DNA of 64,000 nucleotides from Planctomycetaceae bacterium (GTDB taxonomy: Bacteria; Planctomycetota; Planctomycetia; Pirellulales; Lacipirellulaceae), in NCBI GenBank assembly GCA_003233055.1, contig QIKP01000039.1, forward strand, positions 1 to 64,000, given 5' to 3'. Below, in pieces: positions 7,767 through 60,323 of this stretch. How positions within the stretch are numbered: the first letter of the stretch is position 1; each line of letters opens with the position of its first letter. The position numbers and the translations under genes were made by a program. A model generated the notes under the pieces. The model had not been told where the DNA came from and made no database searches. It saw only the letters and a list, made by a program, of their open reading frames with translations.

Positions 7767-7828
7767 GGCAACGACGGCACAGAACGATTGTAAAGTCACA
7801 GCGGAGAGCGGAGGAGCTTTCACCCCAA

Positions 7829-7853
7829 TAGCCGACGAGCTACGTCTCGTCGA
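7829..7853. repeat. Family A palindrome (copy A1)
   Basis: TAGCCGACGAGCTACGTCTCGTCGA: an 8-bp stem CCGACGAG/CTCGTCG(A) around CTACGT. It lies between two convergent genes, where it could work as a bidirectional transcript end. Confidence 0.75.
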
Positions 7854-9418: not shown

Positions 9419-9755
9419 CTCGCGGCCCACTCTGGAGAACTGCAAAGTCTTTTTTGAACCGCCAAGATCGCCAAGGCGCCAAGAAACAAGGACGCCAAGA
9501 AAAATGTCGACGGAAGCAGAAAACCACCGGATTGTTAATTCTGTCACCGTTCATGAGTCGAAAGAAAGAAACCACGAACCCAAAGAGATAGTTGGTGTCC
9601 TTTTGGCCGCTATTCGTATCGATTCGCACGAATTCGTGGTTTCCCCTGCCTCCGATTCGGTGAACGTTTGCCTCTCTCCTCCAACTCTTCTTGGCGTACT
9701 TGGCGCCTTGGCGGTTTTTTTAATTCGGCGACTTTGAAAGCGTCCTCGCGGCCCA
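9419..9755. repeat. Family E element enclosing a family D element (copy E2 with D3)
   Basis: The left end GGAGAACTGCAAAGTC (from 9433) and the right end GGCGACTTTGAAAGCGTCCT (to 9746) match E1. The pair is flanked by a perfect 11-bp direct repeat, CTCGCGGCCCA (9419-9429 and 9745-9755). Unlike E1, the centre holds about 200 extra bp, including a family D inverted repeat at 9543-9668 (GTCACCGTTCATGAGTCGAAAG...GAAACCACGAA against TTCGTGGTTTC...GATTCGGTGAAC). No gene lies inside. Confidence 0.75.
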
Positions 9756-17945: not shown

Positions 17946-18248
17946 CTATTTTTTCCGCTTGGTGGTCTTCCGTCGGGTCGTTTTTGGCTTGGTCGATTTA
18001 GCCTTACGCTTGGTCGTCTTTTTCTTCGTCGATTTACGCTTGGTAGCCGATTTCTTGGTTGCCTTGCGTTTCGTCGTCTTTTTCTTGGGCGACTTTTTCT
18101 TGGTCGACTTGCGCTTGGTGGCGGTTTTCTTAGCCGCTTTGCGCTTCGTCGACTTCTTCGTCGTTGCCTTTTTCTTCGTCGACTTACGCTTGGTTGCTGT
18201 CTTCGACTTGACCGTCTTTCGTTTCGCGGTCGTCTTACGTGCTGCCAT
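17946..18248 (-). CDS. Lysine-rich histone H1-like DNA-binding protein
   Basis: About 100 residues made almost entirely of Lys, Thr, Ala, Arg and Ser, in repeats such as TKRKSTKKK, TTKRKATKKSA and SPKKKTTKRKA. These resemble the AAKK/SPKK-type tails of eukaryotic H1 and of chlamydial Hc2. Such a protein would bind DNA or RNA non-specifically and compact the nucleoid. No globular domain is visible. AAGGAG precedes the ATG at 18248 (MAARKTTAK) by nine bases and fixes that start over the TTG at 18254. A strong terminator follows. A long, repeat-filled leader region lies upstream. Confidence 0.85.
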   Translation of the reverse strand: MAARKTTAKRKTVKSKTATKRKSTKKKATTKKSTKRKAAKKTATKRKSTKKKSPKKKTTKRKATKKSATKRKSTKKKTTKRKAKSTKPKTTRRKTTKRKK

Positions 18249-18934
18249 TTTCAATGGCTCCTTCTACGCGCGCCCGTGGTTGTGTGAATGGCCTTTCCCT
18301 TTGGGCGCTCGAAGAAAAGGAAAGACCGGTGTTCACCTCCAAAGAGGGGAGATCAGGGGGTTCTTTACTCATGGACCACTAAACACCCTTATCTGGCGAG
18401 GATTGAAGCAAGTCTTCCCCGCGCGTGTCAAGCCGAATGTGAATGAAATATCGCGTAGCGGGAAAGTTTTCTTGGCGATCACCGGCTCTTGCTCTTCGCC
18501 CCGCCGCGCAGAAAGAGAAGAGTCACTGTTCGCGGAATCCGAGGTGGGAAAAACCACGAATCGACACGAATAACGGCTATTCGTCCGATTCGTGGTTGCG
18601 ACTTCCGACTCGTGAACGACCCGCCCCTCTGTTTCTTCGCGCCTTGGCATGAGGATTCTTTTCCTGGCGTTCAGAGCCGGGGGGTTTTTAACGCCAAGAC
18701 GCAAAGGAAGAAAAGAATGGGCCGCAGAGAATCGCAGAAGAACGCTCATCGGCGCTCATCGACGCTAATTGGATTAGTGAAGATTAGTGTTCCTCTCTTT
18801 GGCTCCTCTCACGCGAATTTCTGACGTGACAAGTTGCCTGGAACAACAACAACCATCGACGGCGGCGGCTATCTGCGCTTATCGGTGGCACAGGTTCCCA
18901 TTTATCCAAAACATCGGTGCAGCCCGTGGTTCCT
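18249..18934. other. Long intergenic region with composite repeat
   Basis: About 690 bp between two minus-strand genes. The first 200 bp are the leader of the H1-like gene and show no family repeat. The rest (18549-18825) is a composite of family D and family C modules. ORFs here translate repeat sequence and are not supported. Confidence 0.55.
18549..18825. repeat. Composite family D + C repeat block (D4/C1)
   Basis: It opens with a hairpin of AACCACGAATCG-ACACGAATA against TATTCGTCCGATTCGTGGTT. ACTCGTGAACGACCCGCCCC follows, then a CTTCGCGCCTTGGC / GCCAAGACGCAAAGG inverted pair, and finally the family C run ACGCTAATTGGATTAGTGAAGATTAGTGTTCCTCTCTTTGGCTCCTCTCACGCGAA. The same modules recur in another order at 27.9-28.3 kb. 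Confidence 0.7.
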
Positions 18935-20140
18935 TCAATCGGCGGCGCTGTGTCGCTCGGCCCACTCCAGGAGCCTACGATACTGCTCCGCGAAGTCATG
19001 CTCGTCGCTCCCGAGCGGGCTCTTGAAGAAGCTCGCTAGGTGCGCGAGCGGCCCTGATTCGCCTGCGCGGCTCGACCGTTCGAGCAGCCGCACTAAGTCG
19101 AGAACCAGAGGGGCTGCGAGCGCCGAATCGGAGCCTTGCCACGTGCATTGGAGGGTCATGGGAGTGCCTAGAAAACCCCGGAAATGGACGTGGTCCCAGG
19201 CTGTTTTCCAGTCGCCCAGGCTCTTAATGTATTCGATGGAGACGAGCGTCTGGGGATCGTAACCGAGCGTTCCCCCGAGCACCTTGTCCTTTGTTTGGAT
19301 CTTCGCCGCCCGGTTTTCTGGATCGTTGAGCACGCTGCCATCCAGGTTGCCAAAAATATTGTGGCCGACCCAACTCATGACTTCGAGGTTTCGATGGGCG
19401 AACATCGGGGCGAGGACCGTCTTGAGCAGGGTCTCGCCCGTCTTGCCATCTTGTCCGGCATGGCAGACGCCACGACGCCGGGCCAGGTCGTCGATCGCCG
19501 GAAGCGACGCCCCCGCCGAGGGCGTGAAGTTCACGAAGGGGAGGCCCCTTTCCAACGCGGTGATCGCGTAGAGCGAGCTAGCCCGCAGCGATGTTTCCCC
19601 AGTTTCTTCCAGTAGTGGCTCCAGCTCGGTCCAAGTCGTTGGCAGCTCGCCGCCGGTCAGGGGCTCCGTCGAAGCGAGATAGACGACCACGACTTGGTCG
19701 ACTCCTTCACGGTCACGAAATGCCTGGAGATCGCTTTGTATCTGCGAGAGAAAGGTGCGAGGGCTAACGTCGTCTGGGGCCAGTGGCATATCGGCCAGCG
19801 CGCGAATCGTCTTGCCGCATCGATAGGCGATTCCAGGCTGGATGCGCGACTCGACCTCCGCGAGGTCCTCCCGGCAGGCGTCGAGCAGATCGCGAGGGAC
19901 GACCCCTTCGGCCGCCAGTCGCTCGGCTGTCGCGGTCATGCAGGGAGAGCGAATGTCGTGGCCGCCGACGACCATCGACTGCCAGGAAGCCAAACCGAGC
20001 TTGGCGAAGGGAGGTAACTCCGTCACCAACCCAGCATTCGTCGTCATGCCCTTTTGGAGGGCGAAAAGCCCTAGCGTTGCGGTGGTCGCAACATTGCCAC
20101 AAGCACCCACGAGCCAGATTCCGAGTTTTTTGTCCGCCAT
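18935..20140 (-). CDS. Inositol-3-phosphate synthase family protein
   Basis: Converts glucose 6-phosphate to 1L-myo-inositol 3-phosphate with NAD as internal redox cofactor. About 401 residues from ATG 20140 (MADKKLGIWLVGACGNVATTATLGL, the dinucleotide-binding loop). Diagnostic stretches follow: FVNFTPSAGASLPAIDDLA, AGQDGKTGETLLKTVLAPMF, VGHNIFGNLDGSVLNDPENRAAKIQTKDKVL, and DHVHFRGFLGTPMTLQCTWQGSDSALAAPLVLDLVRLLE. The 15 extra N-terminal residues of the track ORF are unlikely to be translated. Inositol could feed phosphatidylinositol or a compatible solute; no partner gene is visible nearby. Confidence 0.9.
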   Translation of the reverse strand: MADKKLGIWLVGACGNVATTATLGLFALQKGMTTNAGLVTELPPFAKLGLASWQSMVVGGHDIRSPCMTATAERLAAEGVVPRDLLDACREDLAEVESRIQPGIAYRCGKTIRALADMPLAPDDVSPRTFLSQIQSDLQAFRDREGVDQVVVVYLASTEPLTGGELPTTWTELEPLLEETGETSLRASSLYAITALERGLPFVNFTPSAGASLPAIDDLARRRGVCHAGQDGKTGETLLKTVLAPMFAHRNLEVMSWVGHNIFGNLDGSVLNDPENRAAKIQTKDKVLGGTLGYDPQTLVSIEYIKSLGDWKTAWDHVHFRGFLGTPMTLQCTWQGSDSALAAPLVLDLVRLLERSSRAGESGPLAHLASFFKSPLGSDEHDFAEQYRRLLEWAERHSAAD

Positions 20141-20174
20141 GAAATGCGATATCTGCGTCTGGAGTAAAAAAAGC

Positions 20175-20200
20175 CGGCCCGCCACGCGGTCCGGCCAGGC
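20175..20200. repeat. Family B palindrome (second site)
   Basis: GGCCCGCCACGCGGTCCGGCCAGGCGGG shares CCGCCACGCGGTCCG (one mismatch) with the priA-nadD palindrome. It lies in the divergent region between the inositol-phosphate synthase and the aminotransferase. Confidence 0.6.
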
Positions 20201-20313
20201 GGGGGTCCAACGAACACTTGGAACGCGCTGGAGCCCACTCTATAACGATTGTCGCAGCGCTGGCCCCGTAGCGTCAACCGAATGATTCCCCCTTTCATCC
20301 CGCTCATTGCACT

Positions 20314-21510
20314 ATGTTTCAGACCATCGAACTTGCCCCACGCGACCCGATTCTTGGTTTGACCGAAGCCTTTAAGGCCGATCGGAATCCCGAAAAGATT
20401 AATCTGGGGGTGGGCGTCTATCAGGACGCCTCGGGCAAGACACCGCCGCTTGGCACCGTCGCGGAGGCAGCCAAACGCCTCGCAGAGGCGAATGGGAGCT
20501 TGTCTTATTTGCCGATTCCTGGGTTGGCGGAATACACCTTGGCTGTGCAGCAGCTATTGTTTGCTACGGACCACGAAGTCCTTGCGACCGGGAGAGCCAA
20601 GACGGCGCAAACACCGGGGGGCACCGGCGCCCTGCGCGTGACGGGCGATTTCCTCAAGCAGAATTTTCCGAACGCCACGGTCTGGGTAACCGACCCGACT
20701 TGGGCCAACCACCCGGGAGTCTTTCAAGCGGCGGGTGTCCGGGTCGAGAAGTTTCCCTACTTCGACAGGCAGTCCAATGGCATTGCGATCGAGGAAATGC
20801 TCGAAGCGATTGGCAAGATGCCAGCGGGCGATGCGGTGCTGCTGCATGGCTGTTGTCATAACCCGACCGGTGCGGACCCGACCGCCGACCAGTGGCAGCA
20901 GATCGCCGACGCGGTTTATGGCCAAGGCCTGTTGCCGATCGTCGACTTTGCTTACCAGGGATTTGCTACGGGCATCGAAGAGGATGCTGCCGGCTTGCGG
21001 GCGATGGTTCGTCCTGGCGAGGAGATGATCGTTTGCAGTTCCTTCTCCAAGAATTTCGGCCTGTATTGCGAACGGGTTGGCGCAGTGACGCTGGTTGTCG
21101 CCGATGCCGATCAAGCAGCGGTCGTTGAGAGCCAAGTCAAGCGGGTGATCCGCACCAACTATTCGAATCCGCCTGCCCATGGTGCCCGACTCGTTGCGAT
21201 GATTCTCGGCGACGACACGTTGCGAGACCAATGGCAGGAGGAAGTGGCAACGATGCGAGATCGAATCAATGGCATGAGAGCGCTATTGGTCGAGAAGTTG
21301 ACCGAAAAGGGTCTGCCGGGCGATTACTCGTTTATCCAGAAGCAGCGAGGCATGTTCTCCTTCTCGGGCCTCACCAAGGACCAGGTCCATGCCCTTCGTA
21401 AGAAACATGCGATCTATATCGTCGACTCGGGACGGATCAATGTCGCGGGGATCAACGAGCGGAACGTCGATCGCCTCACCCAAGCGATGGCGGACGTCGT
21501 AGGCAAGTAG
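20314..21510 (+). CDS. Aspartate/aromatic aminotransferase, class I
   Basis: A PLP-dependent transaminase of the AspC/TyrB type (398 aa). It interconverts aspartate or aromatic amino acids with their keto acids, using 2-oxoglutarate. Typical sequences: N-terminal LAPRDPILGLTEAFKADRNPEKINLGVGVYQDASGKTP, TPGGTGALRVTGDFL, WVTDPTWANHPGVF, LHGCCHNPTGADPT, DFAYQGFATG, and the PLP-binding lysine in SSFSKNFGLYCERVG. The final part (QRGMFSFSGLTKDQVHALRKKHAIYIVDSGRINVAGIN) is also diagnostic. AspC and TyrB cannot be separated from this reading. A family A palindrome follows the stop codon directly. Confidence 0.93.
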   Translation: MFQTIELAPRDPILGLTEAFKADRNPEKINLGVGVYQDASGKTPPLGTVAEAAKRLAEANGSLSYLPIPGLAEYTLAVQQLLFATDHEVLATGRAKTAQTPGGTGALRVTGDFLKQNFPNATVWVTDPTWANHPGVFQAAGVRVEKFPYFDRQSNGIAIEEMLEAIGKMPAGDAVLLHGCCHNPTGADPTADQWQQIADAVYGQGLLPIVDFAYQGFATGIEEDAAGLRAMVRPGEEMIVCSSFSKNFGLYCERVGAVTLVVADADQAAVVESQVKRVIRTNYSNPPAHGARLVAMILGDDTLRDQWQEEVATMRDRINGMRALLVEKLTEKGLPGDYSFIQKQRGMFSFSGLTKDQVHALRKKHAIYIVDSGRINVAGINERNVDRLTQAMADVVGK

Positions 21511-21536
21511 CAGCCGATGAGCTACGCCTCATCGGG
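21511..21536. repeat. Family A palindrome (copy A2)
   Basis: CAGCCGATGAGCTACGCCTCATCGGG. Both arms carry matching changes (GATGAG and CTCATC), so pairing is kept relative to the consensus. It starts one base after the aminotransferase stop codon. Confidence 0.8.
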
Positions 21537-21538
21537 AG

Positions 21539-21603
21539 GTCGGGTGCCAGGGCCGGGAGAGGCATTGTTCCGGCCGTGCGGGTTGCACGCCTGGAGGCCC
21601 GAC
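21539..21603 (+). ncRNA. Possible three-way-junction RNA structure in the glgA leader
   Basis: An outer stem GTCGGG/CCCGAC plus CCAGG/CCTGG encloses two hairpins: GCCGG...CCGGC and CGTGC-GGGTT-GCACG. The helices meet without spare bases, and TTTT follows. It could be a structured leader element or a terminator of the aminotransferase transcript. I do not recognise a known riboswitch. Confidence 0.4.
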
Positions 21604-21672
21604 TTTTCTGATTCCACGCCCTGGGTCGACTTAACTGCCTGCCTGAAGTTTGCCGATCGTGATATCATGGAG

Positions 21673-21696
21673 CGAGACCGGGGGGGCCCCGGCTCG
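21673..21696 (+). promoter_or_regulatory. GC-rich hairpin upstream of glgA
   Basis: CGAG-A-CCGGGG-GGG-CCCCGG-CTCG forms a strong hairpin with one bulged A. It lies 25 bases before the glgA ATG at 21722 and may limit ribosome access. Confidence 0.45.
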
Positions 21697-21721
21697 AACG
21701 CCTGCCAACGCCGTATTTGCC

Positions 21722-23203
21722 ATGAAAATTCTCTTTGCCACCGCCGAAGCCGTTCCGTTCTGCAAAACAGGTGGGTTGGGCGACGTCTGTGGATCGCTGC
21801 CGGTGGAGTTGGCCCTTCGTGGGCATCAGCCGATCGTCCTGCTTCCCGCTTTTCGTCAGGCGCTCGAATCGGGCCAACCGATCGAACGGACCGGCATCGA
21901 GTTTGAGGTACCGATCGGGGGGAAGCCGGTTCGCGGGACTTTGCTGCGGAGTCGCCTGCCCGATTCGAACGTGCCTGTTTATTTGGTAGAGCAGCCCGAC
22001 TACTACGATCGCGCAGAGCTTTATCAGGAGCAGGGCTCCGACTACAACGACAACTGCGAGCGTTTTGTCTTTTTCTCGCGAGCCGTTCTCGAGGTGATCG
22101 AGCAGGTTGCCCCTGAGACAGAGCTCGTGCATTGTCACGACTGGACGACCGGCCTGGTGCCTGCCTATCTCAAGACGCTTGCTGGGAGGAATGTCGATTT
22201 TAGTCAAATTGCCTCGCTCTTTACCATTCACAATCTTGCCTACCAGGGTACCTTCTGGCACTGGGATATGGAGCTCACCGGGCTCGACTGGAAGTACTTT
22301 AACTGGCAACAGATGGAGTTTTACGGCCAGCTCAATTTTTTGAAGACAGCGCTCGCCTTTGCCGATGCCTTGAGCACGGTGAGTCCAACCTACGCCCAGG
22401 AGATTCAATTACCCGAACATGGTTGCGGACTCGATGGCGTGCTTCGGCAGCGCGCGGAGGACTTGTTTGGTGTGCTCAATGGTTGCGACTATGGCGAGTG
22501 GAACCCGGCAACCGACCCGCATCTGGCCCGCCAATATTCGGTCCACGATTTTTCTGCAGGGAAAGCCGCCTGCAAGCAAGCCCTGCAGCACGAGATGGGG
22601 TTGCCGGAAATCGCCGACACGCCACTCTTGGTAATGGTGGGCCGGCTCGCCGACCAGAAGGGGCTCGACCTCTTGGCGACCCTCATTCCGCAATATGCCG
22701 AGCGGGGGGAGGTGCAATGGGCCTTCCTCGGGACGGGCGATCCGAAATACCACAAGCTACTCGCGGACCTTGCCACACGCTATCCGAAGCAGGTGGCGGT
22801 CCGGCTGGAGTTTTCGAACCCGCTGGCCCATCGCATGGAGGCGGGGGGGGATCTCTTTCTCATGCCGAGCCGGTACGAGCCGTGCGGACTCAACCAGATG
22901 TACAGCCTCCGCTATGGCACCGCGCCGGTCGTCCGCAGCACGGGGGGCTTGGCCGACACCATCACCGATGCCTCGGACCAGGCGATGTCCCAAGGCACGG
23001 CCAACGGGTTCAGCTTTTCTGAATATAGCCCCGAAGCACTTGGCGCAACCCTCGAGCGGGCCATCGCCCTCTATCGCAACCCCGATCGCTGGCGGCAACT
23101 TCTCCTGACCGGTATGCAGCAAGACTGGTCGTGGTCGACCAGTGCCGAACGTTACGGCGAAGTCTATCGCGAGACACTCGCGCGCGTGGCATTGGCGGTC
23201 TGA
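21722..23203 (+). CDS. glgA: Glycogen synthase (ADP-glucose type)
   Basis: Extends alpha-1,4-glucan chains from ADP-glucose (GT5 family). From the ATG at 21722: MKILFATAEAVPFCKTGGLGDVCGSLP, whose Lys15 in KTGGLGD binds the nucleotide-sugar phosphates. Further: HCHDWTTGLVPAYL, TIHNLAYQG, LSTVSPTYAQEI, GVLNGCDYGEWNPATD, VGRLADQKGLDLL, and MPSRYEPCGLNQMYSLRYGTAPVVRSTGGLADTI. About 493 residues, normal for GlgA. The ORF-track start at 21650 would translate through the leader hairpin and adds nothing conserved. No other glg gene is visible. Confidence 0.95.
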   Translation: MKILFATAEAVPFCKTGGLGDVCGSLPVELALRGHQPIVLLPAFRQALESGQPIERTGIEFEVPIGGKPVRGTLLRSRLPDSNVPVYLVEQPDYYDRAELYQEQGSDYNDNCERFVFFSRAVLEVIEQVAPETELVHCHDWTTGLVPAYLKTLAGRNVDFSQIASLFTIHNLAYQGTFWHWDMELTGLDWKYFNWQQMEFYGQLNFLKTALAFADALSTVSPTYAQEIQLPEHGCGLDGVLRQRAEDLFGVLNGCDYGEWNPATDPHLARQYSVHDFSAGKAACKQALQHEMGLPEIADTPLLVMVGRLADQKGLDLLATLIPQYAERGEVQWAFLGTGDPKYHKLLADLATRYPKQVAVRLEFSNPLAHRMEAGGDLFLMPSRYEPCGLNQMYSLRYGTAPVVRSTGGLADTITDASDQAMSQGTANGFSFSEYSPEALGATLERAIALYRNPDRWRQLLLTGMQQDWSWSTSAERYGEVYRETLARVALAV

Positions 23204-23216
23204 CTGTCTTGAACGG

Positions 23217-23594
23217 TTAAAAGAAAACAACGGCCCCGACCACGCTTGCCCCGATCGCCGCCACCAGCACGGCCGCGCTCGCCACATCGAGCGCGTCACG
23301 AATTTCTGGGTGCTCGTCGCGTGTGATCGCACGGGCCAAGTGTTCGATCGCCGTGTTGAAGAGTTCGGCAGAGAGGACGATTGTGATGCAGAGCAGGAGC
23401 GCGATCCAATCGGCTTGCGAAACACCAAGCCACGCCGCAGCGCCAACCACCAGCGCGGCGGCAGGCAGGTGGACGTAGAAACTGTTCTGTCCACGAATGC
23501 CAACGGCAACGCCCCGCAGTGCGCAGGCAAATTTGCAGCACCAGCGGACGGCGAGAGAATCGGAGATTGGGAGTCGGGGTTTCGGTTTGCTCAT
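23217..23594 (-). CDS. dgkA: Diacylglycerol kinase / undecaprenol kinase (DgkA family)
   Basis: A small integral membrane lipid kinase, about 125 residues from ATG 23594 (MSKPKPRLPISD). The N-terminal amphipathic part FACALRGVAVGIRGQNSFYVHLPAAALVVGAAAWLG is followed by the conserved ALLLCITIVLSAELFNTAIEHLARAIT, with the catalytic Glu and Asn residues. A final helix is ASAAVLVAAIGASVVGAVVFF. The Gram-positive-type enzyme of this family phosphorylates undecaprenol; which lipid is used here is unknown. It follows the LptD-like gene on the same strand, with a heptamer tandem repeat in between. Confidence 0.9.
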   Translation of the reverse strand: MSKPKPRLPISDSLAVRWCCKFACALRGVAVGIRGQNSFYVHLPAAALVVGAAAWLGVSQADWIALLLCITIVLSAELFNTAIEHLARAITRDEHPEIRDALDVASAAVLVAAIGASVVGAVVFF

Positions 23595-23646
23595 GCGATC
23601 AATGTTTTTTGGCGGTCCGCTTTCCGCCTGGAACGGCTTGGTGTTG

Positions 23647-23677
23647 CTGCCCACTGCCCACTGCCCACTGCCCACTA
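23647..23677. repeat. Heptamer tandem repeat, four units of CTGCCCA
   Basis: Four perfect CTGCCCA units (minus strand TGGGCAG) start immediately after the TAG stop codon of the LptD-like gene and end 50 bp before dgkA. A different heptamer array lies at 58541-58579. Confidence 0.9.
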
Positions 23678-26600
23678 TTCTAACCCAAACGCACCTGCTG
23701 GGGGGATTGCAATGCCGGTGCTGCGGGTGAGGGTGAGGCGTGGGAGGAAGCGGGGTTCGATGAGGAAATTGACGCCGACGTTGTCCTTCGACTCGTCGAT
23801 GTTTGCCCCTATCGAGACGATCAGCGATTCGCCAATGCGGCTAAAGGTGATGCGCTGGCCAATGTTGCCTGCCTCGCTAAAGTCGACCACCGCGCTAGCC
23901 GAAGCGAGCCACTTCGGCCCGAGGCGGTAGTTAACCGTGGCGGTGAGGACGTCGGCCGTGAAGGGACCACGGAGCGTACGGTAGCCGAGATAGAGATTCC
24001 CGCGACTCGGGCGGTTCATGAGGACACCGGCCGAAACCGTCCGCAACCCGTCGCCAAACATATCGGCCGCCCCGTCCGAGAGGATCGTAAATCGGTCGCC
24101 CAAGTGCCAACGGAAGTCGTAGTCGGCCAGTCCTAACTCCGAACCAAAATTGTCGCGCCCACTGCTAGGAAACCACGTAACGTTCGAGTCGAGGGTGATC
24201 CAATCGACCAGATGTTGTCGGCCAGGAAGCCCCCGTTTGGTTTGCAGTCGGTGCCGCATTCCGAACCGAACCAAAGTTTGGTCCTCCACCACCTCCAGGG
24301 CAGGCGACGTGACCGAGCCTTGGGTATTGCTGCGCAGCAAGTAAAAACGAGGGTCGAATCTGGGATCGATGGTGGTGGGGGATGCGACCGGGTCGAATCG
24401 CCCGCCAGCGAGCGCTCCGCCGAAGGGCGCGAAGAAAAGCCGGCGGCGGATATCGTCGAAGATATCGTCGTCGATTTCGTCGTAGAGCGGAAACTCCGTC
24501 AGGTTGCGGTTGGCGTCGGCATGGGAGGCCTCCATGTCGAATACCACTTTGTGCGCAAGCCCGTTGAGGTTAAAGACCGGATCCTGAACGTTGGGATTGA
24601 CGGACCAAAAGGGGATGCTCGCCCGGACGCCAGCTTGGAAGTAGGCCCGCTGGATGTCATTCCCCTCAAGGTCGGCCCCCCAGTGGCCAAGTTCACCAAG
24701 GGCAAACGGCACGATCTTGAACGGTTCGAAGTTCAGCGGCATATCAATTTCATTGCGCGTAATCACGCGTTCACCCCTCGGCGAGGCGCGGTCGCCTGCG
24801 GCATTTTGCTCCCAGGGTAGCAGGGCGAACTGACCCGCTAGCTCGGCGCTCGTTGGCGAGCGGGCGATCTCTTGATTCGCATAGCCGGCAGTCGTACGGG
24901 AGTAGAGCGTAAAAGTATCGGCTCCAAATTCCTGCCCTAGCACGTAGTAGTCCAGCCTTGGCAGCCACTGCGTCTGCGTGAAAAAATCATTCAGCCGCAC
25001 GTTGGCCTCAATCGATAGGGATCGATTGTCGCGAATCCGTTTGAGACGCACGCCGGTCGTCTGGTCCTTGCGGTTGTCCCATTCCTGTTCGTAGTACTGT
25101 TCGAGGAAGGTTCGGTCGCTGATCCAGCCAGCCTCCGCCTGGACAGTCCATCCGGCGAAGAACCCTTCGTCCAGCTTCTGCCGATGGTTCCAAAGCAGCC
25201 GGCCGCGAAAGCTCTTCTCGGGAACGATATTTCTCCGCCCAAATCCGAGATTGTCGTTTCCGCTGTCGTTGATGGCCCAGAAATCGAGCAGCCCACTCGT
25301 CGGGCCGATCGTGTCGAAGAATCGGTCCCGGTTGTATTGTACGGTGGTGCCGTAACCAAATCCCCGATCGCTCAGGTAGTCGAGACTCGCGTCCCATTCG
25401 ACGCCTCGCGGAGCGTTGCGAGCCCCTAGGAGCTGAAAGACATCGAGGTCCACGAGAGTTTGGAATCCAAAAATACTATCGTTGCGAATCCGTAAATTAT
25501 CGACGTAAAAACTCGGTTCCTCCAAGTTGGTCGCAATCGTCGGCCAGTAGAAGACCGGCACATTACCCAAGTAAAGGAAGTTGTTCTGGCTCTCCGCGAG
25601 GCTGGTGTGTTCGAATTCCAACTCACCCGTTGCCGGATTGCGCGCTTGCGTTCCAGTGAAGGGATTGATCTTCGGACGCTGGACATCTTCGAATTGAATC
25701 GTCTGCGAACCGAGGTGGTAGTTGGGGACTTCGAGCCGGCTAGTGGTGAGGAGTGCGTCGTAGGCGACAAACCGAGAGGCGTCGAGCTGCTCGATCACTC
25801 CTGCCTTAAGCCGCACGAGGCCCTGGTATTCGTAGTCCCCTACTTGAGGTAACGGGGTGATGAGTTCGGCGTTCAGGATGGTCCCGACTTTGCGGCGGAC
25901 ATCGTAGTACATCCGTTCGGCATAGACGGTTCGCTCCCCTTGTCGAAAAACGATGTTCCCTTCCAAATAGATTTCGAGCGGCACCTCGCTCGACTGTTCG
26001 ATTTGCCCGCCACCAAATAACGCGCTCGAGGTCCAGATCACGGCCCGATCGGCCTGGATGTCGAGGTTGTCGACCGACCCCAGTGCGGAGGGAAGCCCGT
26101 CAGTTTGCAGCCCTTCGATGGCCATATGGACGCCGCCGGTAACGGTCGTCGCGAACTCGCCGCTTGGCAATGGATGGGCGTCGACCTGCATCCCCACATC
26201 ACTGCGAGGGCCAAAGCGAATTCGCCGGACGCCCAGCGGGTTGGTCACGACGGGAGCGGGGGACGGAACCAGTTGCTCAAACTGCACCAACTCGATCGAG
26301 CTGGCGGCGGCACTTTCCGTCGCGACGAGAACATCGTTATCGGGGCCAAATCGCGCCAGCCCGCGACTGTGGATCGCTGGCAACGACGAGGGGGCCTCGC
26401 GCTGTTGAGTGACTCGCCAATCGACGGGGGTGCGGCTCAGCCAACGCCCAAACCAGGTCGGCACCGACTGCCGCGCTGGTTGCCCGATCGGGGCACGATG
26501 GGAGAGGACCACCGAAGTGGCCGGCAGCGACTCGGCGTAGACGATGATCTTCGTGCGAGCCTCCGGGTTGGCTGGGTCGGGCGATTCGATCCAGAGCACC

Positions 26601-26845
26601 GCCTCGCTGGCATCGACCCGGTTCGCACCCTGGGTCAGCGAGCAGCCGCCCGTCAGATGCCAAACCTCATAGATTCCCTCGCGCCACTTGGCTGCCGACG
26701 CGGCGGTGACGGTGATGGCCGGATCGTCGATCGGCCTCGGCAAATAGACTTCGCCCGCCGCCGATGGCCCCGACGGTTGCACCATCGAGAAGAGCCAACC
26801 GAGCAGCATGGCGCGCGCAACGGTTGCGCCAAGTGTGTTACACAC
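23675..26845 (-). CDS. LptD/OstA-like outer-membrane protein
   Basis: A protein of more than 1000 residues resembling LptD, the outer-membrane translocon that inserts lipopolysaccharide. A signal-like segment (ARAMLLGWLFSMVQPSGPSAAG) is followed by a periplasmic OstA-like jellyroll region (LEIYLEGNIVFRQGERTVYAERMYYDVRRKVGTILNAELITPL). Then come NNFLYLGNVPVFYWPTIATNLEEPSFYVDNLRIRNDSIFGFQ and a long aromatic-rich beta-barrel part up to RLTLTRSTGIAIPPAGAFGLE. The track ORF starts at 26977, but its first 30 codons translate a family F repeat. I prefer the GTG at 26845; an ATG at 26809 is another option. LptE is not visible. Confidence 0.8.
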   Translation of the reverse strand: MCNTLGATVARAMLLGWLFSMVQPSGPSAAGEVYLPRPIDDPAITVTAASAAKWREGIYEVWHLTGGCSLTQGANRVDASEAVLWIESPDPANPEARTKIIVYAESLPATSVVLSHRAPIGQPARQSVPTWFGRWLSRTPVDWRVTQQREAPSSLPAIHSRGLARFGPDNDVLVATESAAASSIELVQFEQLVPSPAPVVTNPLGVRRIRFGPRSDVGMQVDAHPLPSGEFATTVTGGVHMAIEGLQTDGLPSALGSVDNLDIQADRAVIWTSSALFGGGQIEQSSEVPLEIYLEGNIVFRQGERTVYAERMYYDVRRKVGTILNAELITPLPQVGDYEYQGLVRLKAGVIEQLDASRFVAYDALLTTSRLEVPNYHLGSQTIQFEDVQRPKINPFTGTQARNPATGELEFEHTSLAESQNNFLYLGNVPVFYWPTIATNLEEPSFYVDNLRIRNDSIFGFQTLVDLDVFQLLGARNAPRGVEWDASLDYLSDRGFGYGTTVQYNRDRFFDTIGPTSGLLDFWAINDSGNDNLGFGRRNIVPEKSFRGRLLWNHRQKLDEGFFAGWTVQAEAGWISDRTFLEQYYEQEWDNRKDQTTGVRLKRIRDNRSLSIEANVRLNDFFTQTQWLPRLDYYVLGQEFGADTFTLYSRTTAGYANQEIARSPTSAELAGQFALLPWEQNAAGDRASPRGERVITRNEIDMPLNFEPFKIVPFALGELGHWGADLEGNDIQRAYFQAGVRASIPFWSVNPNVQDPVFNLNGLAHKVVFDMEASHADANRNLTEFPLYDEIDDDIFDDIRRRLFFAPFGGALAGGRFDPVASPTTIDPRFDPRFYLLRSNTQGSVTSPALEVVEDQTLVRFGMRHRLQTKRGLPGRQHLVDWITLDSNVTWFPSSGRDNFGSELGLADYDFRWHLGDRFTILSDGAADMFGDGLRTVSAGVLMNRPSRGNLYLGYRTLRGPFTADVLTATVNYRLGPKWLASASAVVDFSEAGNIGQRITFSRIGESLIVSIGANIDESKDNVGVNFLIEPRFLPRLTLTRSTGIAIPPAGAFGLE

Positions 26846-27294
26846 TTTCTCGCAGTTCAGGCGTAGCAAACGGGTGATGATCGAGTTGGCGTCCCCAGTA
26901 GGCCAGGCTTTCAGCCTGACATATCCTAGTAGGTTAGGCTTCCAGCCTGACTTGTAGCGAAAGTGTCGTCCTGTCAATCGGACCTGTTAGTCGGAAGAGA
27001 CTGACCTACGGCCGCTCCCTCCGCGCAGCCTTTCCGCGCAGAGACAAAGGCGGCGGAGTATAGGAGCCAATCGCTCCCCGGGTCAAGGCGTGTTCGCTGG
27101 AGCTCTAGCGAACGTAAAGTGTTTCGCATGCACGGGTTGCGTAAATCTCAGATGCTTAACTGGGGGGCCACACCTCGCGCGGGGCTCGCTGCATTGCTTT
27201 GGTGCTGGCATTGCGATAGGGTTTCGCCTGCTGTCGAGATATTCCTCTTTCCGTCCCTCCCTTTCTTCTCTGCCCTACCTGGAGCCAACGAACC
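26846..27294. other. Divergent intergenic region between LptD-like and fae
   Basis: 449 bp that must carry both promoters. It includes the two direct family F repeats at 26897-26951. Beyond them I see no gene or other clear structure. Confidence 0.5.
26897..26951. repeat. Two direct family F repeats
   Basis: AGTAGGCCAGGCTTTCAGCCTGAC (26897-26920) and AGTAGGTTAGGCTTCCAGCCTGAC (26928-26951) match in all but four or so positions and sit 31 bp apart. Each contains AGGCT...AGCCT arms. A third copy lies inverted at 28070-28093. Confidence 0.8.
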
Positions 27295-27843
27295 ATGTCC
27301 GAACGAATCATCCTACGAACGGGCGAAAGCCTTGTTGCTGGCGGGCCCCCTTTTACCGCAGCCGAGCCAGAGGTCGTCATTGGCGAACTCGATGGCCCCG
27401 TCGGTACCGCACTCGCCACGCTCACCGGCAATCAGTCGGCGGGCCACTCCAAGGTCTACGCGATCCTGAATACCGATATCCAGGTCCGTCCCGTCACGCT
27501 CTGCGTGAGCAAAGTCACCGTGAAGAACACCCGGTACACGAACATCCTCATGGGGACGGTGCAAGCAGCCATTGCTAACGGAGTGCTCGACGCGGTCCGC
27601 AGTGGCGCAATTCCCAAGGAGAAAGCCAACGACCTCGGTATCATTTGCAGCGTCTGGCTCAATCCGGGGGTTGCTACCGACGACAACCTCGACCACCAAG
27701 CGCTGTTCGATATCCATCGGAAAGCGATGACGCAGGCGATCGAAAAGGCAATGAACCACCAGCCCTCGATCGACTGGCTCCTCGAGCATCAAGAAGAAAT
27801 CACCCACAAGTATTTCCAAATGGGCCTGGATGGGAAGATTTAA
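27295..27843 (+). CDS. Formaldehyde-activating enzyme (Fae) family protein
   Basis: A 182-residue member of the Fae family, which couples formaldehyde to tetrahydromethanopterin in methylotrophs. Matches to the family by eye are VVIGELDGPVGTALATLTG, KVTVKNTRYTNILMGTVQAAIANGVLDAVRSGAIPKEKANDLGIICSVWLNP, and IHRKAMTQAIEKAMNHQPS. Planctomycetes are known to hold tetrahydromethanopterin C1 genes. Oddly, the catalytic His17 of the Methylorubrum enzyme appears to align with Glu or Ala here, and the NNKHG loop is changed, so activity may differ. No other C1 gene lies in the window. The ATG at 27295 is the only sensible start. Confidence 0.8.
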   Translation: MSERIILRTGESLVAGGPPFTAAEPEVVIGELDGPVGTALATLTGNQSAGHSKVYAILNTDIQVRPVTLCVSKVTVKNTRYTNILMGTVQAAIANGVLDAVRSGAIPKEKANDLGIICSVWLNPGVATDDNLDHQALFDIHRKAMTQAIEKAMNHQPSIDWLLEHQEEITHKYFQMGLDGKI

Positions 27844-27909
27844 GGGAACCGCTCACGTCGAGGTTCCGCCCTGGCGATGCCGCTTCAGCGGCAGGCGCGT
27901 CGGAGCGGA

Positions 27910-28306
27910 GGGCCGAGATTAGCGAAGATTAGCGTTCCTCTCCTTGGCTCCTCTCACGCGAAGTCCTGATGCAATGCGTTGCGTGGAATCACCAACAAAT
28001 CTATCTGCAATTCTCTGCGGCGATTCGTGGTTCCCTCTCTTTCGAATGGTGAACGGTTGCAAAAAAAACGTCGGGCTGGAAGCCCAACCTACTCGCCGTG
28101 AACGACCCGCCCCTGTTTCTTCGCGCCTTGGCGTGAAGCTTCTTTTCGTGACGTTTGGAGCCCGGAATTGTCTCACGCAAAGGCGCGGAGGCGCAAAGGA
28201 AAAAAGAATGGGACGCAGATCAGCGCAGATGTTTCGGTTGAAGAACGCTAATCTTCACTAATCAACGCTAATCCGATTAGTGGAAATTAGCAAAGATTAG
28301 TGCTTA
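27910..28306. repeat. Composite family C + D + F repeat block (C2/D5/F2/C3)
   Basis: Order: GATTAGCGAAGATTAGCGTTCCTCTCCTTGGCTCCTCTCACGCGAA (C2, closely matching 18773-18825); a family D part with GCGATTCGTGGTT and GTGAACGGTTGC; an inverted family F copy (28070-28093); GTGAACGACCCGCCCCTGTTTCTTCGCGCCTTGGCGTGA with a distant TCACGCAAAGGCGCGGAGG partner; then the C3 hairpin of CTAATCTTCACTAATC and GATTAG units. It fills the gap between two convergent genes, with no ORF. Confidence 0.75.
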
Positions 28307-37712: not shown

Positions 37713-37720
37713 GTCGTTGT

Positions 37721-37784
37721 CTAGCCGACAAGCTACGTCTTGTCGGTTATGTTGGACCTCCGACGAGACGTAGCTCGTCGGCTA
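37721..37784. repeat. Two opposed family A palindromes (copies A3, A4)
   Basis: CTAGCCGACAAGCTACGTCTTGTCGG (37721-37746) and CCGACGAGACGTAGCTCGTCGGCTAC (37759-37784) lie head to head 13 bp apart. A3 has paired substitutions in both arms. They may terminate transcription of the VWA gene. Confidence 0.8.
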
Positions 37785-37839
37785 CTGTATCTAAAACCTG
37801 AGTGTCGTGACACGACCGTACCACTTATACTAAACGCCC

Positions 37840-39439: not shown

Positions 39440-39504
39440 GGAACACTAATCTTCGCTAATCTCCACTAATAGAATTAGCGCCGATTAGCGAAGATTAGTG
39501 TTCC
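39440..39504. repeat. Family C hairpin with perfect 22-bp arms (copy C4)
   Basis: GGAACACTAATCTTCGCTAATC (39440-39461) is the exact reverse complement of GATTAGCGAAGATTAGTGTTCC (39483-39504), with partial pairing in the 21-nt centre. It lies 13 bases before the ATG of the second GTPase gene. Confidence 0.9.
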
Positions 39505-45973: not shown

Positions 45974-46022
45974 ATGTCGGAGCCATACGCCACGCATCCC
46001 AATTTTCAGTCATGCCAAAGCA

Positions 46023-46049
46023 CTAGCCGACGAGCTACGCCTCGTCGGG
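46023..46049. repeat. Family A palindrome (copy A5)
   Basis: CTAGCCGACGAGCTACGCCTCGTCGGG matches the family consensus exactly over 25 bases. It lies 50 bp after the spermidine-synthase-like gene. Confidence 0.85.
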
Positions 46050-46200: not shown

Positions 46201-46344
46201 CTATTCGTCGGATTCGTTCGATTCATGGTTGCCTTTTTCCCGGCCGTGAACCTCCCACCCCTGTTTCTGCACGCCTTTGCGTGAGGACTTTTTTCTCGAC
46301 GTTCGGAGCCGGGAATTGTCGAACGCAAACGCGCGAAGGAACGG
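46201..46344. repeat. Family D extended element (copy D8)
   Basis: CTATTCGTCGGATTCGTTCGATTCATGGTTGCC, then CCGTGAACCTCCCACCCCTGTTTCTGCACGCCTTTGCGTGAGGACTTTTTTCTCGACGTTCGGAGCCGGGAATTGTCGAACGCAAACGCGCGAAGG. The second part is shared with the blocks at 18.6 and 28.1 kb. Confidence 0.65.
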
Positions 46345-52211: not shown

Positions 52212-52306
52212 CGTCTTTATCGTAGGAGGAAATGTCCCGTGTTACAACGCGCAGCACCCGCGTTTCCATCGGTCCCGAGCAATTCGTCGCGGAGGGGCGC
52301 CAACAT

Positions 52307-52355
52307 GCCAACGAGCTACGCCTCGCCGGGGGCCGCGTAGCTCGTCGGCTATTGG
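52307..52355. repeat. Two opposed family A palindromes (copies A6, A7)
   Basis: GCCAACGAGCTACGCCTCGCCGGGGG is followed directly by GGCCGCGTAGCTCGTCGGCTATTGG. The pair is degenerate in single arms but in opposite orientation as at 37.7 kb. It lies between the HD-GYP gene end and the pduO gene start. Confidence 0.65.
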
Positions 52356-57952: not shown

Positions 57953-57963
57953 TTCGAGGGTGG

Positions 57964-58018
57964 GTAGCCGACGAGCTACGCCTCGTCGAAAAGGAATAAG
58001 CTACACCTCGTCGGCACC
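57964..58018. repeat. Family A palindrome and a degraded second copy (A8, A9)
   Basis: GTAGCCGACGAGCTACGCCTCGTCGA (57964-57989) is close to consensus. AATAAGCTACACCTCGTCGGCACC (57995-58018) is a half copy. A9 overlaps the end of folA and provides its stop codon. Confidence 0.8.
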
Positions 58019-60204: not shown

Positions 60205-60297
60205 AACAGCTGGCCTCCCGGTCTCTCGAAGGGAACCATTCACGGAAGCCAAGCCGTCTGGAGCAACGCGGAGGCGCGCAAAGCAGTGCAAAGGAAT

Positions 60298-60323
60298 CCG
60301 ACGAGGCGTAGCTCGTCGGCTAG
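60298..60323. repeat. Family A palindrome (copy A10)
   Basis: CCGACGAGGCGTAGCTCGTCGGCTAG is the reverse complement of the consensus. It lies between the convergent second PII gene and glnE, where it could serve both as a transcript end. Confidence 0.85.

Follow-up and report, generated by a model that had tools for sequence, protein, structure and literature searches.

Several described systems resemble the repeats considered here. Repetitive extragenic palindromic (REP) sequences and their RAYT or TIRYT genes – the REPtrons and TIRtrons – combine hundreds of small intergenic palindromes with a gene that has the same repeats on either side, the gene-less copies being far more numerous than the gene copies. 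Miniature inverted-repeat transposable elements (MITEs) and insertion sequences are marked by terminal inverted repeats, gene-less derivatives and intergenic insertion, and homing endonuclease genes place a nuclease gene between the halves of a palindromic, family-specific site. In the intervening sequences of 23S rRNA, one small gene – the S23 or four-helix-bundle open reading frame (PF05635) – lies between inverted arms; these sequences replaced tetraloops of rRNA helices (PMC4990558), so that entry at the tip of a hairpin has a precedent. Here we compare with these systems the composite repeat blocks of a 64,000-nucleotide stretch from a Planctomycetaceae bacterium (as a whole, ‘the window’), which is part of contig 7 of the assembly called G000 below (2.78 Mb, 79 contigs, 90% complete), and relate them to GxxExxY genes, a family (PF13366/TIGR04256) with a PD-(D/E)XK fold.

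We read the blocks, with a probability of roughly 0.7, as nests of gene-less, MITE-like palindromes related to small selfish GxxExxY elements. This reading draws on the grammar of the arms, the association of genes with arms, the congruence of arm cores with the protein tree, orthologous sites that are gene-less or empty, and bare and nested paralogues, each of which was observed directly. Arms were annotated in about 220 kb of G000 sampled around motif matches; the protein tree and arm classes comprise 62 GxxExxY loci from the same family and order as G000, some class labels on the tree having been assigned by hand where the pattern failed; and the genome association covers 118 genomes of the order. 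A cross-phylum set was drawn from 80 named loci in other genomes, 77 of them with usable flanks; retrieved with the GFLEKVYE alignment subset A2, it is biased towards GAT-type arms. Its controls were reversed and chunk-shuffled flanks, the mismatched-flank control being uninformative for a set with a single core in almost all its members.

The modules that a first-pass annotation had recognised in the window are in fact inverted pairs, which it overlooked: each module is one arm of such a pair, mostly built from three copies of a core of about 7 nt, one per 8–11 bp. The cores – CACGAAT, CGCTAAT, CGCAGAT, CGCAAAG and CGCCAAG – have the consensus C-R-C-N-R-A-K. Window modules of the CGAAT, CTAAT, CAGAT and CAAG types all show this three-core inverted-arm structure, with only two clear units in some arms. 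The repeats are genuine and greatly exceed chance expectation: with 2 mismatches allowed, GATTAGYGAAGATTAGYG is found at 89 places genome-wide (reversed-pattern control 0), and with 3 allowed, TTTCTTCGCGCCTTGGCGTGA is found at 42 (control 0) and ATTCGTNCGATTCGTGGTT at 214 (control 1), the matches in G000 occurring on both strands. The elements of the window are the following, a strand being assigned to the lone CAGAT arm only.

18533–18935 (outer limits approximate): block 1, side-by-side and nested palindromes in the gap between a myo-inositol-1-phosphate synthase gene and a Lys-rich histone-like gene, both named from their translations
18552–18597: CGAAT-type hairpin of block 1; arms 18552–18563 and 18586–18597, 12 nt, 100% complementary
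18626–18717: CAAG-type hairpin of block 1 (TTCGCGCCTTGGC .. AACGCCAAGACGCAAAGG), the first-pass module D
18718–18892: CAGAT-type pair enclosing a CTAAT hairpin; arms 18718–18738 and 18872–18892, 21 nt, 76% complementary
18741–18795: CTAAT-type hairpin inside the CAGAT pair, the first-pass module C
27917–28032: half-onion of block 2, right arms only (CTAAT 27917–27938, CAGAT 28000–28020, CGAAT 28021–28032), compared with the full onion at C3:159283–159480
28110–28201: CAAG-type hairpin of block 2; arms ~28116–28136 and ~28173–28198, 89% complementary over 18 nt
28211–28231, + strand: lone left CAGAT arm of block 2
28240–28303: CTAAT-type hairpin of block 2; arms 28246–28272 and 28276–28302
46203–46342: block 3, a right CGAAT arm (46203–46230) and a CAAG-type hairpin (46263–46342)
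1400–1504: bare CCAAG palindrome without an inner element (paralogous empty form)
9424–9753: CCAAG palindrome of the 1400–1504 type with a CGAAT palindrome inside (filled form); DNA fold z −3.5
39440–39504: stand-alone CTAAT hairpin; 31-nt arms, 3-nt loop, 90% complementary
372–479: stand-alone CGAAT palindrome; 20-nt arms, 80% complementary

The named modules lie where the first-pass annotation had placed them, at 18549–18825 and 27910–28306, and the blocks exceed those limits, block 1 running from ~18533 to ~18935. Both contain the CGATTCGTGGTT part (18586–18597 and 28021–28032), GTGAACGACCCGCCCC..TTCGCGCCTTGGC followed by inverted partners (~18613–18648 and ~28098–28131), and the GATTAG..CACGCGAA line (~18772–18817 and ~27917–27962), of which the two 72-nt copies are 83% identical. 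The stretch at 46201–46344 does hold part of the set, as a CGAAT arm and a CAAG-type hairpin; the copies at 372–479, 1400–1504, 9424–9753 and 39440–39504 had been missed.

The annotation had further proposed that modules are shuffled as units, from the order D-C in the first block to C-D-F-D-C in the second. The modules are indeed discrete and differently combined in each block, and the orders do differ, but the differences do not look like linear shuffling, which was superseded by nesting once the arms had been annotated: they come from palindrome symmetry (arms lie in both orientations), from pairs nested at centres and from the loss of half-palindromes. Block 1 joins two hairpins, of the CGAAT and CAAG types, to a CAGAT pair around a CTAAT hairpin; block 2 opens with a right onion half (CTAAT, CAGAT and CGAAT arms), which is followed by a CAAG-type hairpin, a single CAGAT arm and finally a CTAAT hairpin. 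This make-up accounts for both orders, and ‘C-D-F-D-C’ reads as an onion of nested palindromes with partial deletions.

Across the 220 kb, neighbouring arms of the same class face each other in 59 of 76 cases, and 7–8 pairs are nested while none cross. The arm strings include (CGAAT (CAGAT CAGAT) CGAAT), (CCAAG (CGAAT CGAAT) CCAAG) and (CTAAT CTAAT), the commonest CTAAT form being a tight hairpin with a 3-nt loop. Containments are diverse – CCAAG around CGAAT, CGAAT around CAGAT, CAGAT around CTAAT and AAG-type around CTAAT – and smaller and deeper versions of the filled CCAAG palindrome occur at C3:55800–56130 and C2:83360–84040. That all blocks descend from one ancestral composite decayed by deletions only, the case named beforehand as fatal to module shuffling, accords with the half-deletion in block 2 and with composites (CGAAT around CAGAT; CCAAG around CGAAT) that have clearly multiplied as units. 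It does not fit the coexistence of varied containments, bare palindromes and stand-alone hairpins, nor the other combinations met in relatives, such as AAG around CGCGAAT and CAAAG around CAGAG, and we consider it most improbable.

A distinct palindrome family, TAGCCGACGAGCTACGCCTCGTCGG, lacks the three-unit grammar and is present in about 10 copies in the window; they include 7826–7852, 21508–21534, 37719–37787, 46021–46047, 52302–52355, 57962–57988 and 60297–60322.

Inverted arms in the style of the window modules directly flank GxxExxY genes. Sixty of the 62 loci from the family and order score above every reversed control, and of the 77 cross-phylum loci – from Acidobacteria, Cyanobacteria, Chloroflexi, Spirochaetes, Bacteroidetes, Proteobacteria and Methanosarcinales archaea among others – 68 lie beyond the 95th percentile of their own reversed control, almost all of them having GAT-type cores. 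Strict three-unit arms stand on both flanks at 35/62 loci (wrong strand 1/62, distal 0) and, cross-phylum, at 40/77 (wrong strand 2, distal 0). Most of these arms are three CRCNRAK copies, with a core that is common to both arms and varies between elements: CACGAAT, CGCTAAT, CACGGAT, CGCAGAT, CGCCAAG, CGCAAAG, CACAGAG and others are found beside the genes. The window copies all lack a GxxExxY gene between their arms and are therefore called gene-less derivatives; the only such gene in G000 (C10:41888–42238) has GAG-type arms. In those parts of the open-access literature that were covered – preprints and most subscription journals lying outside this scope – we found no description of arms or mobility for GxxExxY genes, and no equivalent element.

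In what is apparently one neighbourhood of three congeneric genomes, the GxxExxY genes L100 (G003), L101 (G002) and L110 (G001) have arms with different cores (CACAAAG, CACGAAG and ACGACGGAAC), as though arms and protein had changed together, or the site had been occupied anew.

The flanks also bear on another owner, namely that the modules are REP- or TIR-type elements moved by RAYT (Y1) transposases. PF01797 genes are present in G000 and its relatives, and planctomycetes are known to have REPs and TIRtrons (PMC3733652); nonetheless, three-unit arms stand on both flanks in 0/19 RAYT-like loci, most of which have quite different inverted repeats of the CCCAGGGC..GCCCTGGG type (L330 has a GGAT-type pair further out). 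On these flank tests a REP/RAYT identity is rejected for the window modules, and movement by RAYT transposases is very improbable. The family’s RAYT-like genes (L327–L342) have long inverted repeats of their own, of the type just named. PF05635 was rejected as the owner of the arms, its own arms being of another period. PF05635 (23S rRNA IVP) genes in relatives (L111–L140) and in G000 (L121) lie between inverted arms of ~7-bp tandem units, for example GGTCAGC and CAGTAGG, which suggests that a sister type of element exists outside rRNA.

Arm classes sort into protein clades across genomes, with 12 changes on the tree of 62 proteins against at least 29 in 300 shuffles. In both sets together, the residue that closes helix 1, residue 15, is N wherever the core ends in T (77/77), whereas cores ending in G go with R, K, S, T or C at this position (30/34); in three VYK proteins of the CGAAT clade, the last base of the arms is no longer T but mostly A. 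Residue 3 is T where core position 5 is G, and mostly A, S or G where it is A. Tests on independent pairs point in the same direction, with too few pairs for significance, so that these single-residue links are leads rather than proofs. An AlphaFold2 model of a GxxExxY protein (pLDDT 96.8) has as its nearest solved folds AddAB nuclease and the Cas4 protein SSO0001 (TM 0.66), with a best E of 4e-3, and the best named viral match is a PD-(D/E)XK nuclease of a halovirus; the conserved residues D61, E71-x-K73 and Q85 fit an active PD-(D/E)XK site. Sequence search against solved structures yielded nothing useful (best E 0.15), and a PADLOC search gave only weak Cas4-like similarity.

Arms might instead be sites serving the host – terminators or nucleoid-protein sites, for instance – that are maintained by selection and carried by GxxExxY genes by chance. 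They are intergenic and hairpin-forming (DNA fold z −2.3 and −3.5), and their repeat spacing is near one helical turn. Yet the core sorts by nuclease phylogeny and not by host genome, the arms are missing from syntenic gaps of relatives, and no Rfam match to the blocks was found, on which ground an RNA family was also rejected as their identity; a host role for the arms appears very improbable.

The gap that holds block 1 is syntenic in six relatives (G001, G002, G004, G006, G007 and G008) and contains the block in none of them, so that block 1 is best read, from this sequence comparison, as an insertion in the G000 lineage. Downstream of the Fae-like gene that lies left of block 2, G009 (protein 85% identical) has no such repeats, synteny further on not being established. 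The gcvT–gcvH gap holds a full element in G000, G001 and G002, one arm in G003, a gene-less pair in G005, and in G012 an outer GAG pair and an inner ACAGGAT pair without a gene; it is empty in G004, G006, G007, G013 and G014. Across genomes, at least 4 CGAAT arms are present in 9 of the 11 that have a gene of the CGAAT clade, against 6 of the 107 that lack one (p=2.8e-8, relatedness uncorrected). At the same threshold, CTAAT arms occur in 3/4 genomes with the corresponding gene against 5/114 without (p=8e-4, relatedness again uncorrected), these genes having been called by a CGAAT-profile search that is possibly incomplete, and one of the four being broken.

The gene adjoining block 1 (17946–18254) encodes a Lys-rich, internally repeated, histone-like protein, and its synteny with the myo-inositol-1-phosphate synthase gene is kept in several relatives. 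Inverted repeats without a gene lie in the gcvH–gcvP gaps of G007, G006 and G004 (L285, L286 and L288); those of G006 and G004, at least, are of the 7-bp style.

On the reading preferred here, a complete element would consist of one GxxExxY gene, encoding a PD-(D/E)XK nuclease of ~120–150 aa, between two inverted arms, and its protein would specify the core of its own element, probably through binding. Loss of the gene would leave a palindrome; palindromes would multiply in families and settle at the centres of others, building onion blocks that partial deletions then trim. The nuclease may bind and cut the arms directly and is the probable mover of the palindromes, gene-less copies presumably being mobilised in trans. 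Entry would be preferred at palindrome centres, in hairpin or cruciform loops, as the series of bare and filled forms and, by analogy, the 23S rRNA intervening sequences suggest.

A homing model would turn this around: the palindrome would be the recognition site of the GxxExxY protein, the gene at its centre a homing gene, and gene-less palindromes unoccupied or vacated sites, breaks at their centres capturing other palindromes. The GxxExxY gene does lie exactly between inverted arms, bare palindromes are frequent in the same classes, and nesting is located at centres; the spread of palindromes to hundreds of sites, however, is left unexplained by this model alone, and we regard it as rather unlikely.

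Several observations also weigh against nests of gene-less GxxExxY palindromes. The genome association ignores relatedness. G000 itself, with 96 CGAAT arms, ranks first among the 118 genomes in their number but has no cognate gene, and it has 27 CTAAT arms, its single GxxExxY gene being of another class; G007, G004 and G099 are likewise rich in CTAAT arms, with no cognate gene found. In G000 the cognate genes may have been lost or lie in the missing tenth of the genome, or the gene-less copies may use another enzyme. The syntenic gaps are too diverged for exact boundaries or target duplications to be read. Nesting may in part reflect co-amplified composites; amplification of composites as units, together with tolerance of insertions in old repeats, could mimic entry at centres, and a palindrome that lost its centre could likewise give a bare form.

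A broader proposal is made tentatively, at somewhat less than even odds: GxxExxY genes may define an undescribed, cross-phylum class of selfish elements, whose minimal nuclease would read a thrice-repeated core through its first helix, at about one repeat per DNA turn, and act on palindromes or cruciforms, with elements entering each other’s centres; repeats such as CTTCGTGTCCTTCGTGGTT would be its arms. Widespread repeats of the three-unit style, present in many phyla with no stated owner, thereby gain a candidate one. The link to an uncharacterised nuclease, with a core that tracks the protein tree, offers a testable system of protein–DNA recognition and a candidate class of mobile element, and nested palindromes explain the apparent module shuffling in the window. 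If entry at hairpin tips is true, the intervening sequences of 23S rRNA would be a single instance of a more general way of inserting.

Set against the systems described at the outset, GxxExxY elements share the organisation noted for each and differ as follows. Compared with the 23S rRNA intervening sequences, the protein is another one and the arms have a three-unit grammar of 8–11 bp rather than the 7-bp-type period of PF05635 arms; the window blocks, moreover, are intergenic and gene-less, not inside 23S rRNA. Homing endonuclease genes differ in that here there is no intron, intein or conserved host gene, gene-less palindromes number in the hundreds, and cleavage is putative. The window elements have the inverted termini and lineage-specific insertion expected of MITEs and insertion sequences; GxxExxY elements lack a DDE or Y1 transposase, and their termini consist of three internal repeats that vary by protein clade. 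Relative to REP/RAYT systems, the enzyme has a PD-(D/E)XK nuclease fold instead of being a Y1 transposase, and the arms are three-unit repeats with a ~10-bp period, RAYT loci having other inverted repeats. By analogy, GxxExxY elements would belong with MITEs and REP/RAYT systems, but both their enzyme and their arm grammar are different.

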